Below are positions 4,498 through 15,585 of a stretch of 23,290 nt of DNA, in pieces (position 1 is the stretch's first letter; every line of letters starts with the position of its first letter). The DNA comes from Chloroflexota bacterium. GTDB taxonomy: Bacteria; Chloroflexota; Dehalococcoidia; JAUQQI01. The notes beneath the pieces are model-generated. The model was not told where the DNA came from and ran no database searches. It saw only the letters and a program-made list of their open reading frames with translations. The stretch spans positions 1 to 23,290 of the forward strand of contig JAUQQI010000080.1 in the NCBI GenBank assembly GCA_030549955.1. The letters run 5' to 3'. The position numbers and the translations under genes were made by a program.

Positions 4498-5070
4498 ATG
4501 GTCAGCGCAATCCGGATCCAGGACCGGGACCTGCTCAGCCGCCTGAATAGCTACCTCGAGGGGCTCGACTCCTACCTTCGGGAGGGAATCGGCTGGCTTA
4601 TCTTCAACGCCGACCGGCAGCGGACGGCCCGAATCGTCAATTTCATGGTCGATATCCTGAAAGGCCGGCAGCCGCCCGTCGGCTTCACCCTCATGCCGTG
4701 GCGGGACTTCGCGATGAACGCCTACATGCTCAAGATTGAGCTGGCCCACCAGCCCCGCCAGGCAGAAGGCAGCGACCCGAAGATTGCCCAGGAGTACCGG
4801 ATTGCCACCCACGTCAGCCTCGAGCTTTACCGGCAGATGGTCGAGCAGACCCTGATTATCATAACCGGGCTGATACCCCACCACCCCCACGAGGCCGCTC
4901 ACCTGGACGAGATTCTCGACCACCGGGTCCAGCATCGGCAGGCCACCGTCATTATCACGCCCCGAATGCCCGACCAGCTCGCCGCTGATTTCGAAGCCAT
5001 CGACCCCTCGAAGCGGCTGTGGCAACGGATCTTTTCGCGCCTTTATGAGACCAGCCTGATCGCGTTCTGA
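4498..5070 (+). CDS. Unrecognised protein, 190 residues
   Basis: I do not recognise the family. The protein appears soluble and largely helical, with no signal peptide and no clear membrane segment. A moderately hydrophobic stretch (TLIIITGLIP) lies near residues 118-127 and is followed by a histidine-rich segment, HHPHEAAHLDEILDHRVQHR. Those clustered His, Asp and Glu residues could bind a metal, but that is speculation. Coding is supported by a long frame in gene orientation, codon-position GC bias like its neighbours, a purine-rich region before the ATG (AAAGGGAGCGAAGGCG), and a snug fit between the transporter and the oxidoreductase gene (51 bases to the next start). Confidence 0.8.
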   Translation: MVSAIRIQDRDLLSRLNSYLEGLDSYLREGIGWLIFNADRQRTARIVNFMVDILKGRQPPVGFTLMPWRDFAMNAYMLKIELAHQPRQAEGSDPKIAQEYRIATHVSLELYRQMVEQTLIIITGLIPHHPHEAAHLDEILDHRVQHRQATVIITPRMPDQLAADFEAIDPSKRLWQRIFSRLYETSLIAF

Positions 5071-6122: not shown

Positions 6123-6130
6123 GCCGGGTG

Positions 6131-6697
6131 ATGCTCAGCTTTGAACCGATGCAGCCGGCAGATATCCCGGCGGTGGTTGAGATCGACCGGCGCTCCTTTC
6201 CGACGCCGTGGCCCGAGTCGGCCTTTTACCGGGAACTGACCGAGAATCGGCTGGCCCACTACTACGTCCTGCGGGAAGTTCCGGAGGGCACCGAAGAAGG
6301 TCCGGGCGAAGTCGTCGGCTACGTTGGCCTCTGGGTCTTCCACGAGGAAGCCCACATCACAACCATTGCGGTTCGACCGGAGCGCCGGGGGCAGGGGTAC
6401 GGCGAGCTGACCCTGCTTAAGGCCATCGAAGCGGCCCGGCGCCTTGGGGCCAGCTACGTCACCCTCGAAGTGCGGGTCTCAAACACGGTTGCCCAGCGCC
6501 TCTACGAAAAGTACCGGTTCGGTCGGGTCGGGCTGCGGAAAGGGTACTACTCGGACACCGGCGAAGACGCCCTTATCATGACGGTCGAGGGAATCGATAC
6601 CCCGGCCTACCGGCGCTTCCTCGAAGCCCGGAAGGCCGGCCTGACCGCAAGGCTCGGCCACGTCCGGTGCGAATCCGAAACCCGGCCGACCGATTGA
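6131..6697 (+). CDS. rimI: RimI-type GNAT N-acetyltransferase (ribosomal protein S18 alanine)
   Basis: This 188-residue GNAT enzyme probably acetylates the N-terminal alanine of ribosomal protein S18, or other protein N-termini. The acetyl-CoA binding loop RRGQGYG is at residues 85-91, preceded by ITTIAVRPE. The family-specific tail motifs LEVRVSNTVAQRLYEKYRF (112-130) and RKGYYSDTGEDALIM are typical of RimI. A GTG lies immediately before the ATG (GTGATG at 6128-6133). I take the ATG because LSFEPM then follows as in relatives, but either codon could serve. The usual partners tsaB and tsaD are absent. It follows the oxidoreductase by 8 bases and is the last gene before the structured RNA. Confidence 0.88.
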   Translation: MLSFEPMQPADIPAVVEIDRRSFPTPWPESAFYRELTENRLAHYYVLREVPEGTEEGPGEVVGYVGLWVFHEEAHITTIAVRPERRGQGYGELTLLKAIEAARRLGASYVTLEVRVSNTVAQRLYEKYRFGRVGLRKGYYSDTGEDALIMTVEGIDTPAYRRFLEARKAGLTARLGHVRCESETRPTD

Positions 6698-6732
6698 CCC
6701 GACAAAATGTGGAAAACCTCCGCCCCGGGGTA

Positions 6733-6761
6733 TTGACAAGTCCGGGCGGATTTGCTAAAGT
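6733..6761 (+). promoter_or_regulatory. Strong sigma-A promoter for the structured RNA
   Basis: A perfect TTGACA (6733-6738) is followed after exactly 17 bases by TAAAGT (6756-6761). This is the best promoter in the window. The predicted transcription start, near 6768, coincides with the first paired base of the RNA's 5' domain, which supports an RNA gene beginning here. Confidence 0.8.
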
Positions 6762-6767
6762 AAAAGT

Positions 6768-6990
6768 GCCGGGGCCGGTAGTACGAAAGGAACCCGGTTA
6801 AAAATCCAGCAGGTACCCCGGCGACTCGGGGAGCCAAGTAGGTTGACCGGAAAGGAGCCGAAAGGCAGTCTCGAGCGACCAGGGACCGAAAGTCTGGTCC
6901 GGCGACGGACCGGGTAAGTAGGTTACAGTTGCTTGAGATGCCATAAGGCTGCCGGACCGGCAACCGAAAGGCTCCCCGATCTTTTTGTCT
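6768..6990 (+). ncRNA. Candidate free-standing structured RNA, about 220 nt, class not recognised
   Basis: It fills the gap between rimI and the MmgE/PrpD gene, with its own promoter and a terminal U-run. Domain 1 is closed by GCCGGGG (6768-6774) with CCCCGGC (6816-6822) and contains a hairpin resembling the sarcin-ricin loop (6775-6797). Domain 2 is a long rod: 6826-6835 with 6970-6979 (10 bp); an AAGUA/GAAA internal loop; 6841-6850 with 6957-6965 (9 bp, one bulge); AGCC (6856-6859) with GGCU (6947-6950); 6864-6876 with 6931-6942 (12 bp, one bulge). Its apical part includes a GGUCCG-GCGA-CGGACC hairpin (6896-6911). I could not match it to tRNA, tmRNA, SRP RNA, RNase P, 6S, T-box, or SAM, TPP, cobalamin, lysine, glycine or cyclic-dinucleotide riboswitches as I recall their conserved cores. 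It could also be a leader of the downstream gene. Confidence 0.72.
6970..6990 (+). terminator. 3' end / intrinsic terminator of the structured RNA
   Basis: The 3' strand of the rod's basal stem (GGCTCCCCGA, 6970-6979) is followed by TCTTTTTGTCT. Its pairing partner is about 135 bases upstream (6826-6835), so the terminator hairpin is the whole folded rod rather than a small local stem. Confidence 0.6.
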
Positions 6991-7014
6991 TTTGGCTCCC
7001 GCCTACCTTATAAT
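6985..7014 (+). promoter_or_regulatory. Putative promoter for the MmgE/PrpD gene
   Basis: TTGTCT (6985-6990) and a perfect TATAAT (7009-7014) are separated by 18 bases, placing a start near 7021 and the ATG at 7045. The -35 overlaps the U-run of the upstream RNA. A separate promoter downstream favours the RNA being its own transcription unit. Confidence 0.55.
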
Positions 7015-7044
7015 CAGCCGGCGATTCAACGAAGGAGCGTGCCG

Positions 7045-8448
7045 ATGTCTCTGACTCGAACCCTCGCCGACTTTATCACCGGTTTCCCGACCGACCGCAT
7101 CCCGACGGAGGCTTTCGAAGTCGCCACCCGGGCCGTCCTCGACACCCTCGGGGTCGCCCTGGCCGGCTCCGTGGAGCCTCCGGCCACCCTGTCAGCCCGC
7201 CTCGCCCCTGACCTGCCGGGCGGAACCGTTCTCTGGGGTCAAAACCGCCGGACGAACCCGGCCTACGCCGCCCTGGTTAACGGGGCTGCGGCCCACGCCC
7301 TCGACTACGACGACGTTCAGCACAGCTTGCGGGGCCATCCAAGCGCCCCGGTTGTCCCGGCCCTCTTTGCCGCCGCCGAAGCCGCCGGCCGATCCGGCCG
7401 GGACCTGCTGGCGGCGTACGTTCTTGCCGACGAGGTCGCTGGGCGCCTGGGCGAGGCCGTCGGGGCCCCACACTACGTGGCTGGGTGGCACAACACGTCA
7501 ACCCTCGGGGCCCTCGCGGCGGCCGCCGGTTGTGCCCGCCTCCTTGGCCTCGGGCCGGAAGAAACCTGCCGGGCCCTTGGCATCGCGGCCTCGATGGCGT
7601 CCGGTCTCAAGAAAAACTTCGGGACCATGACAAAGCCCCTCCATGCCGGCCTCGCCGCCCGGGTGGGTTACGAGGCCGCAACCCTGGCCGGCCTTGGTTT
7701 CACGGCCGATGACGCGATTTTTGACGGGTCCCTCGGCTTTCTTTCGGTTTATTCCGCCGGGGGCTCGGTCAACCCGGATGCCCTCGTTGATGGACTCGGC
7801 CAGCGCTGGCAGGTCCTTGACCCGGGCATCGCGGTCAAAATTTACCCGTGCTGTGCCGAGACCCACCGGGCACTGGATGCCATCTTCCTCCTGCTGGCCG
7901 AAACGCCCTTCGGCCCCCAGGAGGTTGAAGCCGTGGAGGCCCTCGTCTCACCGGTCGGAACCCCCCTCATCCACACGTCGCCGAAAACCGGCCTCGAAGG
8001 CAAGTTCAGCATAGAGTACTGCCTGGCGGCGGCGATCCTCGACCGCAAGATTAACCTCACGACTTTCACCGACCCGATGGTTAGCCGGCCGGAAGTCCGG
8101 TCCCTGATGGCGAAGGTTCGGCGGGTCTGGTACGACTTCCTCCCCGTGGGCAGCGGACTTCAGGACGACCTTCGGAGCGGCACCGACGTGCCCCTGGTCA
8201 AGGTTTATCTAAAGGACGGCCGGGTTCTCGCCAGGCGGGTCGAGGAGCCGAAGGGCGACCCGAAGAATCCTGTCAGCTGGGCCGAGCTGGTCGGCAAGTT
8301 CAGGGATTGCGCGGGCCGGGTGCTCGTTTCCCGGTCCATTGACCGCCTGGTCGAGCTCATCCGCAATCTCCGGGACCTCCCCGACCTGCGGGAGGTTTCG
8401 ACCCTGCTGGCCGGAACCCCCGAACCCGTGAGGGAGGCGGCCCGGTGA
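7045..8448 (+). CDS. MmgE/PrpD family protein (2-methylcitrate dehydratase-like)
   Basis: This 467-residue cytoplasmic enzyme belongs to the family that includes 2-methylcitrate dehydratase, cis-aconitate decarboxylase and iminodisuccinate epimerase. Family hallmarks are NGAAAHALDYDDV (79-91), GHPSAPVVPAL (97-107) and the segment MASGLKKNFGTMTKPLHAG. The start is the ATG at 7045, because GAAGGAG (7031-7037) lies 7 bases upstream. The in-frame extension back to 6985 runs through the promoter and is rejected. No prpB, prpC or acnD homologue is nearby, so a methylcitrate-cycle role is not supported by context and the exact substrate is unknown. Its stop overlaps the start of the GAF gene in GTGA, implying translational coupling. 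Confidence 0.9.
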   Translation: MSLTRTLADFITGFPTDRIPTEAFEVATRAVLDTLGVALAGSVEPPATLSARLAPDLPGGTVLWGQNRRTNPAYAALVNGAAAHALDYDDVQHSLRGHPSAPVVPALFAAAEAAGRSGRDLLAAYVLADEVAGRLGEAVGAPHYVAGWHNTSTLGALAAAAGCARLLGLGPEETCRALGIAASMASGLKKNFGTMTKPLHAGLAARVGYEAATLAGLGFTADDAIFDGSLGFLSVYSAGGSVNPDALVDGLGQRWQVLDPGIAVKIYPCCAETHRALDAIFLLLAETPFGPQEVEAVEALVSPVGTPLIHTSPKTGLEGKFSIEYCLAAAILDRKINLTTFTDPMVSRPEVRSLMAKVRRVWYDFLPVGSGLQDDLRSGTDVPLVKVYLKDGRVLARRVEEPKGDPKNPVSWAELVGKFRDCAGRVLVSRSIDRLVELIRNLRDLPDLREVSTLLAGTPEPVREAAR

Positions 8449-14049: not shown

Positions 14050-15585
14050 TTATTTCGGCGTCGGAATGTAGTGCCCCCGGGGCCGGTTTCCGAGCAGGTA
14101 AGCGGTCGAGGTCCGTAAACCGGCAACCCCGGTCAAAATCGGGATGTAAACGGGAAAAACCAACCAGAACAGGACCATGTCCCGCAGGCCGCGCCAGCCG
14201 GGCCTTCCCGGTCCAACCCATTCCGGCACCGCCAGAAGGGACCAGTAAACGATAAGGCCGAGGACCGTGACGGCGGTCAGGGCCAGCCCAACCAGCCAGT
14301 TCATCGTCTCAACGCGGTAGTAGGGGTAAAGGAGGGAATCGACGAGCTTGGCGGCGGAGAATCCGACCCCCGGTATGAGGGTGAGGAGGTCTCGCTCCAG
14401 CCCCGACCAGAGTTTTCGAAGCAGCAGGGGGATGTGGCCAAGGCGGGCGGCCTCAACGAACTCGTCGAGGGGGCCTTCCCGCCAGCGGGCGCTCTGCTTG
14501 AAAAGGCTCTGGAACGACCGGATGTAGGTCCGGACTCGCGCCCGGAGGGTCGAGTGGTCGCCAATGGCCATCACCGGGTAGACCCAGACCGGAACCGGAA
14601 TACCCACGACCCGGAACCGGGGCCCGTAGCGGGCCCGGAGCCGGAATTCAACGCCGCTGTCCTGGCTGTGGGAGTTGGTCGGCCAGAAGTCGACGGTCGC
14701 GTACAGGCCCAGGGTTCCGGCGGCCCCGGTAAAGGCGATTTCGGGCCGGCGGATCCACCCGACCGTGTGGGCCGACGTGGCCAGGGCCGCCAGCCGGCTA
14801 TGGAGGGGTGCCCGCCAGTAATCAAGGGTGAAGAGCACCACCGGCTGGTAGAGGTGGAACCGCCGTTCGGGGTCCTCCAGGAAGGTTACGACCAGGGCTG
14901 GCAGAAAGTTTGGGTGGAACCGCGTATCCGAATCCAGGTCGACGACAAGCACCTGCCAGGGGTCCTCGCCCCGGGCGAGGGCCTCCCGGTACAGAACATG
15001 CCCGACCCAGTGCATCGCCGAACTCGGGCCGGGCAGAACGTCCGGCTCGTCGGGGTGGGCGACCTCCCTGACCGGAAGCCGCCCGGCAAACTCGGCCCGG
15101 AGCCTGGCCACAAGGGGCCGGGTCACCGGGTCGTTCTCCTCGGTACAGTAGACGACCTCAACGTTGACGAGGCGGCCCTCCGGGTCCTTCGGCCAGTTCG
15201 AGTCATAAATTGATTGGACGCTTGCCCGCAGCATCTCGTAGTTCGACTCCCGGTAGGCCCGGACCAGGAAGATGATTCTGAGCCGGCGCCATCCGGGATG
15301 GGCCTCAAGGCGGCCAAGCCAATCCTCGCGGCTTGACCGGAGGACCCAGGGCCGGTTAATGAGGGCGCTGACGCCGTAGTAGAAAACTTTCGCCACGAAG
15401 ATGACAAATCCGCAGGCGACGACGGTGAGGCCCACGCCCGGGTGTATAAGGGACAGCCAGACCGGGGCGGTCAGGAAAAGCCACGCCATCAGGCCGGGAT
15501 AGGCTTCGTAGAACCGCTGCCGTAGCTGGCCCGCGGCCTGGAGGCTGCGAAGGCGGTCGAGCGCGGCAAGGGTCAGGCCCACCAT
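14050..15585 (-). CDS. Membrane-bound family 2 glycosyltransferase with QxxRW motif
   Basis: This 511-residue protein has two N-terminal hydrophobic segments (about 32-75), a cytoplasmic GT-A catalytic domain, and hydrophobic C-terminal segments after about residue 425. Catalytic signatures are IIFLVRAYRE (104-113), the DxD-type DLDSD (216-220), QDSG (308-311, likely catalytic-base region) and QSARW (364-368), the QxxRW motif of processive synthases such as cellulose or hyaluronan synthase. It therefore probably transfers sugars from a nucleotide donor at the membrane, perhaps forming a polymer. There are no PilZ domain or export partners nearby. The ATG at 15585 has AAGGA six bases upstream. 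Its own extended -10 promoter lies in the short gap after the glycerate kinase gene. Confidence 0.8.
   Translation of the reverse strand: MVGLTLAALDRLRSLQAAGQLRQRFYEAYPGLMAWLFLTAPVWLSLIHPGVGLTVVACGFVIFVAKVFYYGVSALINRPWVLRSSREDWLGRLEAHPGWRRLRIIFLVRAYRESNYEMLRASVQSIYDSNWPKDPEGRLVNVEVVYCTEENDPVTRPLVARLRAEFAGRLPVREVAHPDEPDVLPGPSSAMHWVGHVLYREALARGEDPWQVLVVDLDSDTRFHPNFLPALVVTFLEDPERRFHLYQPVVLFTLDYWRAPLHSRLAALATSAHTVGWIRRPEIAFTGAAGTLGLYATVDFWPTNSHSQDSGVEFRLRARYGPRFRVVGIPVPVWVYPVMAIGDHSTLRARVRTYIRSFQSLFKQSARWREGPLDEFVEAARLGHIPLLLRKLWSGLERDLLTLIPGVGFSAAKLVDSLLYPYYRVETMNWLVGLALTAVTVLGLIVYWSLLAVPEWVGPGRPGWRGLRDMVLFWLVFPVYIPILTGVAGLRTSTAYLLGNRPRGHYIPTPK

Follow-up and report, generated by a model that had tools for sequence, protein, structure and literature searches.

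The raiA motif, or ModT RNA (RF03072), is described as a stand-alone and densely structured bacterial RNA of about 210 nt (PMC11751092; PMC11706538), with two core pseudoknots being ascribed to it (PMC11751092). Dictyoglomi-1 RNA (RF01703) appears in a list of the noncoding RNAs of Dictyoglomi (PMC2864571). The sarcin-ricin (S/R) motif has been characterized as a recurrent, modular, and autonomous 5x4 loop (PMC8450098), and bulged-G modules are stated to be frequently tied to protein binding (PMC7247131). The ribosomal sarcin-ricin loop (SRL) is described as being inserted at the GTPase center and as contacting EF-G and L6, with A2660, G2661, and A2662 being of importance and G2661 being directly involved in GTPase activation (PMC6562825). 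Many large structured bacterial RNAs have no known mechanism, and an SRL-like hairpin in such an RNA provides a specific handle.

We analyzed a stretch of 23,290 nt of Chloroflexota DNA (hereafter, the window), in which a probable undescribed structured RNA gene had been proposed at positions 6768-6990 (the original prediction). This proposal was supported by the lack of a match in Rfam, an exceptional fold that is better on one strand, a putative promoter of its own, a terminator-like end, and three candidate sarcin-ricin modules. The modules are new relative to the original prediction, with the apparent SRL mimic being the most informative feature. The element is probably a real, unusual, and undescribed RNA with an unexpected ribosome-like hairpin. 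Its features and its neighbors are as follows.

6128-6697, plus strand: upstream neighbor, a GNAT acetyltransferase gene (rimI-like), assigned with Pfam
6733-6761, plus strand: putative promoter of the RNA, TTGACA (6733-6738), 17-nt spacer, and TAAAGT (6756-6761), agreeing with the consensus at 10 of 12 bases and having a TG ahead of the -10 hexamer
6768-6822, plus strand: predicted 5' domain of 55 nt with a 7-bp closing stem (6768-6774/6816-6822; closing-helix pair probability, 0.98), within which lie the SRL-like hairpin and, at 6798-6815, a linker of 18 nt
6775-6797, plus strand: SRL-like hairpin UAGUACGAAAGGAAC, parsed as CCGG-U-AGUA-C-GAAA-G-GAA-C-CCGG, with a 4-bp CCGG stem (pair probability, 0.87)
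6823-6981, plus strand: predicted long rod, 159 nt, in which helices alternate with internal loops
6834-6842, plus strand: 5' strand of the outer candidate sarcin-ricin module, CC-AAGUA-GG, pairing with 6964-6971
6860-6863, plus strand: GAAA of a 4x4 internal loop, opposite AUAA at 6943-6946, in the MFE structure
6886-6892, plus strand: 5' strand of the inner candidate sarcin-ricin module, CC-GAAA-G, pairing with 6915-6922
6902-6905, plus strand: apical GNRA tetraloop GCGA capping a 9-bp helix, from sequence and MFE
6915-6922, plus strand: 3' strand of the inner module, U-AAGUA-GG (loop bases 6916-6920/6888-6891)
6964-6971, plus strand: 3' strand of the outer module, CC-GAAA-GG (loop bases 6836-6840/6966-6969)
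6970-6993, plus strand: 3' arm of a 10-bp GC-rich helix followed by UCUUUUUGUCUUUU, read from the sequence as a probable intrinsic terminator, the "loop" of which would be the rod
6985-7014, plus strand: TTGTCT-N18-TATAAT, a promoter-like site that would serve the downstream gene separately, from the promoter scan
7045-8448, plus strand: downstream neighbor, a gene for an MmgE/PrpD family protein, assigned with Pfam

Organization of the locus

The element is housed in a 347-nt gap between the rimI-like acetyltransferase gene (6128-6697) and the MmgE/PrpD gene (ATG at 7045). A promoter scan of positions 6500-7200 returned three sites, compared with a mean of 0.1 for shuffled sequences. The promoter of the RNA had been called near-perfect, a label for which "good with an extended -10" is the better substitute; the 10 consensus bases and the TG stand. 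The predicted start, at 6768 and 7 nt past the -10 hexamer, falls as claimed on the first base of the 7-bp closing stem. The 3' end also agreed with the original description of a U-run followed by a separate promoter, with a U-rich tail beginning at 6982 and the second promoter-like site, the -10 hexamer of which is a perfect TATAAT, being located past the terminator-like end. The T-run of the tail overlaps the -35 hexamer of this second site. A terminator scan found no intrinsic terminators, because it was restricted to loops of 3 to 8 nt.

We infer from this arrangement a stand-alone RNA gene. Transcription would begin from the promoter at 6733-6761 and would stop at the U-tract past the rod, ahead of the separate promoter of the mmgE/prpD gene.

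Predicted secondary structure

The fold predicted for the transcript is very strong and consists of a small domain at the 5' end followed by a stiff, elongated rod. The 55-nt domain of the original prediction corresponds to 6768-6822, and a rod with an apical GCGA was also recovered, its length being 159 nt (6823-6981) rather than roughly 154 nt. From the base, the rod helices of the MFE structure comprise 2 bp, 10 bp (6826-6835/6970-6979), 5+4 bp, 2+4 bp, 4 bp, 11 bp, 4 bp, and the apical 9 bp. Pair probabilities in the rod ranged from 0.91 to 0.999, with the exception of the 2-bp base at 6823-6824 (0.49). The 4x4 loop formed by GAAA (6860-6863) and AUAA (6943-6946) is one that we take to be possibly of the UAA/GAN type.

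The MFE of 6768-6990 was -113.5 kcal/mol, compared with -78.4 kcal/mol (SD, 4.3) for 200 dinucleotide shuffles (z of -8.17), none of which folded as well. A fold scan of both strands over the entire 23 kb, comprising 309 scan windows with 30 shuffles each and hence rougher z values, gave -6.8 and -6.3 for two windows on the element, -3.65 for the next best, and a mean of -0.69. These values confirm that the structure is real. The GC content of the element (61%) is below that of the window (66%) and so does not explain the fold, in line with the earlier assertion that GC content alone hardly accounts for the complementarity. The minus strand had an MFE of -97.1 kcal/mol, 16 kcal/mol weaker than that of the plus strand. 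Five of the 53 base pairs of the rod are G-U pairs, and, given that these correspond to A-C mismatches on the opposite strand, they favor the plus strand.

Candidate sarcin-ricin modules in the rod

We take AGUA/GAA to be the core letters of the sarcin-ricin motif. Two internal loops of the rod contain the same nine bases, AAGUA/GAAA, with GG/CC on one side and with the strand order swapped between the two copies. The outer loop (6836-6840/6966-6969) forms a 5x4 AGUA/GAA motif with canonical flanking pairs in the MFE structure. The inner loop is likewise 5x4 if G6892 and U6915 pair with each other; the MFE structure opens this G-U pair, giving a 5x6 loop. Among 4000 dinucleotide shuffles of the element, two AAGUA/GAAA modules were present in the MFE structure of none and one module in that of 54. 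Division of the window into 1154 tiles yielded 1148 tiles with no module, four with one, and two with two. Both two-module tiles and three of the four one-module tiles lie on the element, with the remaining tile being on the minus strand at 6188-6410.

With the 5' hairpin included, the RNA would contain three sarcin-ricin modules, as judged from sequence. The likeness to the sarcin-ricin or bulged-G internal-loop motif, which forms 5x4 loops in rRNA and also occurs in riboswitches, lies in AAGUA/GAAA with canonical flanks, present twice. The element differs in having two identical copies of opposite order in one rod plus a hairpin form.

SRL-like hairpin of the 5' domain

Residues of the 5' hairpin were assigned to a U.C and an A.A pair, bulged G6781, U6782.A6791, A6783.G6790, C6784-G6789, and a GAAA tetraloop (6785-6788), with the non-canonical pairs being assigned by analogy. 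The MFE structure shows weak competing pairs within the hairpin (probability, 0.36 to 0.47) in place of the sarcin-ricin arrangement, because the energy model cannot score the non-canonical module.

The corresponding region of the 23S rRNA from the same genome (contig C308; RF02541, 971 bits) reads CTCC-T-AGTA-C-GAGA-G-GA-CC-GGAG. The 2.47-Mb assembly contains the core AGTACGARAGGA at exactly two sites, the element and this 23S rRNA; of 4000 shuffled versions of the element, two contained AGTAC-N4-GGAA. We also searched both strands of 1.48 Mb of fetched loci, with those holding the element left out, for the layout AGTA-n-GNRA-n'-GA on a stem of at least four pairs with at most one mismatch. 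The layout was found in two places, the 23S rRNA of the same genome and a eukaryotic-type large-subunit (LSU) fragment, both of which are rRNA, in a sample that is non-random in that loci L098, L102, and L109 had been fetched with the core pattern itself. The archaeal-type LSU locus L098 contains the core and failed the stem rule.

The likeness of the element (CCGGTAGTACGAAAGGAACCCGG) to the SRL, helix 95 (H95) of 23S/28S rRNA (CTCCTAGTACGAGAGGACCGGAG in the same genome), consists of the AGUA-C-GNRA-G-GA core, one mismatch below it, and a Watson-Crick stem. GGAAC is shared by the element with two LSU loci, L098 (a match to the archaeal model) and L102 (a match to the eukaryotic model). The element differs in having GAAA instead of GAGA at 6785-6788, an unrelated stem, a location outside any rRNA, and no LSU match in Rfam. 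The hairpin is not a copy of H95, and an LSU rRNA fragment or pseudogene was rejected given the lack of an LSU match in Rfam. At the level of sequence only, the hairpin appears to be a close mimic of the ribosomal SRL.

Two observations concern the rRNA loci themselves. The 23S rRNA gene of the same genome (L109:2236-2945, minus strand, contig C308) harbors a group I intron (RF00028, 59.7 bits) with an open reading frame at 2268-2831 for a LAGLIDADG endonuclease of 187 amino acids (PF00961, E of 5.4e-24). The rRNA of L098 (genome G311) best fits the archaeal LSU model, and that of L102 (G276) the eukaryotic LSU and small-subunit (SSU) models; both genomes are assigned to the bacterial class, and their assemblies are probably contaminated.

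Comparison with known RNA classes

A search of the window with Rfam at the gathering threshold gave no match for the element, with alignments below the threshold being at chance level only. At an E of up to 10 over 6650-7100, four alignments were obtained, none of them to 6S, raiA, OLE, or SRP RNA, consistent with the original statement that no common RNA class could be matched.

Of these four chance-level alignments, only that of Dictyoglomi-1 RNA (12.6 bits, E of 1.8) makes structural sense, resting on a CCGAAAG/AAGUAGG module that both RNAs have close to the foot of a long helix. Membership of the element in a broader undescribed RNA class including Dictyoglomi-1 RNA would account for this shared module and for the similar size (236 model positions), in a comparison made by the two ends of the model only. 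The score, however, falls far short of the 150 bits required at the gathering threshold, and the same model gives 18.6 bits on 23S rRNA, so that such scores need not mean descent. Application of the Dictyoglomi-1 model to 197 genomes of the class yielded three weak matches and none above the cut-off; one of the three is inside 23S rRNA, and the other two showed no match to a single-sequence model of the element (R1). Given the score far below the cut-off and the alignment to 23S rRNA, we did not file the element under Dictyoglomi-1, and we consider a common class very improbable.

The element resembles raiA RNA in its apparent stand-alone nature, comparable size, and dense structure. It differs in the lack of a match to the raiA model and in its extra pairings: among bases unpaired in the MFE structure, we found only A/U-rich pairings with the U-tail, of at most six pairs.

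The rod-shaped RNA polymerase regulator 6S RNA (RF00013) needs a large open central bubble, and we know of no 6S RNA with a separate 5' domain carrying an SRL-like hairpin. A diverged housekeeping RNA, most plausibly a 6S RNA invisible to the Rfam model, would agree with the element in size and rod shape. No 6S RNA was found in the same genome, and the Rfam model detects one in only 1 of 36 genomes (this genome plus 35 relatives); the 6S RNA of this class is thus either absent or unseen by the model. Against a 6S identity, there was no match at an E of up to 10, the largest rod loops in the MFE structure are 5x4 and 5x6 with no large bubble, and the element has a separate 5' domain with the SRL-like hairpin. 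We therefore regard a 6S identity as extremely improbable.

Retrons, OMEGA/TnpB RNAs, group II introns, and integron attC sites were dropped from consideration, with none of 18 window proteins scanned with Pfam being a reverse transcriptase, TnpB, or integrase. Two window open reading frames, at 4498-5070 (plus strand, 190 amino acids) and 14050-15585 (minus strand, 511 amino acids), had no Pfam match at an E of 0.001.

Search for homologs

The source genome is 82% complete, with 334 contigs and 2.47 Mb, and contains the element in single copy. The nearest kin in the genome sets searched belong to the same class only. A BLASTN search of 148 genomes, including that of the element, detected no second example; such searches yielded nothing in phages and only one 22-nt chance match in plasmids.

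Searches with single-sequence models, which diverged homologs may escape, were performed on genome sets that overlap and include the source genome, with the 393-genome class set and the 400-genome phylum set being draws from larger groups. Model R1 detected no homolog in the 393 class genomes, two other matches at E values of 0.22 and 0.48 being short hairpins, and none in 14 genomes picked from 80 loci of an MtaB search, in which the MtaB relatives among the matches listed showed at most 45% identity. A second single-sequence model, R2, gave no second example in the 400 phylum genomes or, with laxer filters, in 39 genomes (the source genome plus 38 others). The pattern AGTACGARAGGAAC matched in 12 of the 393 class genomes including the source, and folding of the other 11 loci revealed the rod in none; two of the 11 are archaeal- and eukaryotic-type LSU rRNA according to Rfam. 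Three patterns matched 7, 3, and at least 120 stretches of viral contigs, and none of 90 loci tested had an R2 match at an E below 1. Three of the seven viral loci matched by the first pattern (L091, L092, and L094) consist of arrays of short GC-rich hairpins with CGAAAGT or AAAGTAGG spacers. The element is represented by one sequence only, with no sign of selection being seen beyond it, and its class and function are thus tentative.

The lack of homologs would suit an inverted repeat, such as a transposon remnant or DNA hairpin, that folds well by chance and is not an RNA gene, as would the strong unrelated folds that adjoin mmgE/prpD genes elsewhere (for example, z of -10.5 and -6.8 at locus L129). 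The element is nevertheless single copy in the assembly, its rod contains five G-U pairs, and the other strand folds worse. Its internal loops also correspond by sequence to specific RNA three-dimensional modules that are exact repeats in opposite strand order, and it has a promoter, a terminator-like end, and a further, SRL-like hairpin that is not part of the rod. The three sarcin-ricin modules in particular make a plain inverted repeat unlikely, and we judge this explanation improbable overall.

Possible mode of action

Because bulged-G modules are autonomous in their folding and often serve as docking sites for proteins or other RNA, a protein-binding scaffold or decoy acting in trans is the most likely role for the element. 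We thus favor, as the probable interpretation, a stand-alone noncoding RNA of approximately 215 to 225 nt with its own promoter and three sarcin-ricin modules that would most likely act in this way and not through base-pairing. Our best reading is of a lineage-restricted, trans-acting, protein-binding RNA, the 5' domain of which would mimic the SRL. The likeliest partner of the 5' hairpin would be an SRL-recognizing translational GTPase, ribosomal protein L6, or an assembly factor, with binding of a translational GTPase being a guess. It is quite possible that the modules have a structural role only: bulged-G modules also act as mere structural joints, and resemblance to the SRL may therefore not mean shared partners.

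Munishkin and Wool reportedly described in 1997 the binding of EF-G to oligonucleotides that mimic the SRL. Of the three important SRL bases, A2660 and A2662 have identical equivalents in the element, with that of G2661 being replaced by A (numbering by analogy), a change that argues against simple GTPase activation. A more specific and rather speculative proposal is that a regulatory RNA imitating the SRL captures a translational GTPase, L6, or another SRL-binding factor in trans, with the G-to-A change permitting binding yet neither normal activation nor cleavage and with the two identical rod modules offering further docking sites, in the manner of a "ribosome in pieces" decoy. In the open-licence PMC literature, we found no free-standing RNA that mimics the factor-binding center of the ribosome. 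If the element does bind SRL partners, it would be a free-standing mimic of this center that controls translation; if not, three bulged-G modules by sequence in one compact natural RNA would still make it useful for structural work.

Neighborhood of mmgE/prpD genes in relatives

A cis-acting leader of the mmgE/prpD gene, either a riboswitch or an attenuator, with the rod as the aptamer and the closing helix as the terminator, would be consistent with the position of the terminator-like rod end about 60 nt before the start codon. Structured leaders with embedded terminators are described in PMC6478431. The separate promoter-like site past the terminator, with its perfect TATAAT, argues against a leader, as does the neighborhood of the homologous genes. 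Homologs of mmgE/prpD were found in 63 of 235 genomes of the class, including the source genome, at an E of 1e-60 or less. A search of 29 homolog loci of the class with R1 on both strands gave no convincing match (best E, 0.069), and neither CCGAAAG nor the SRL core was present upstream in any of the 28 loci with 460 nt of upstream sequence, L126 being too short. Upstream fold z values were -7.1 for the locus of the element, -6.8 for L129, -4.6 for L131, -4.0 for L135, and -3.8 for L123, with the rest being -2.5 or weaker. The strong upstream folds of L129, L131, and L123 were inspected, and those of L129 and L131 had no match in Rfam. Nothing thus suggests a conserved leader of mmgE/prpD, a few upstream stretches folding strongly in other ways, and we consider a leader unlikely.

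The stretch L129:1165-1470, which lies upstream of an mmgE/prpD homolog and yielded the z values of -10.5 and -6.8 in two tilings, contains direct repeats of 16 to 18 nt. This fold looks like a repeat element and is unlike that of the RNA described here.
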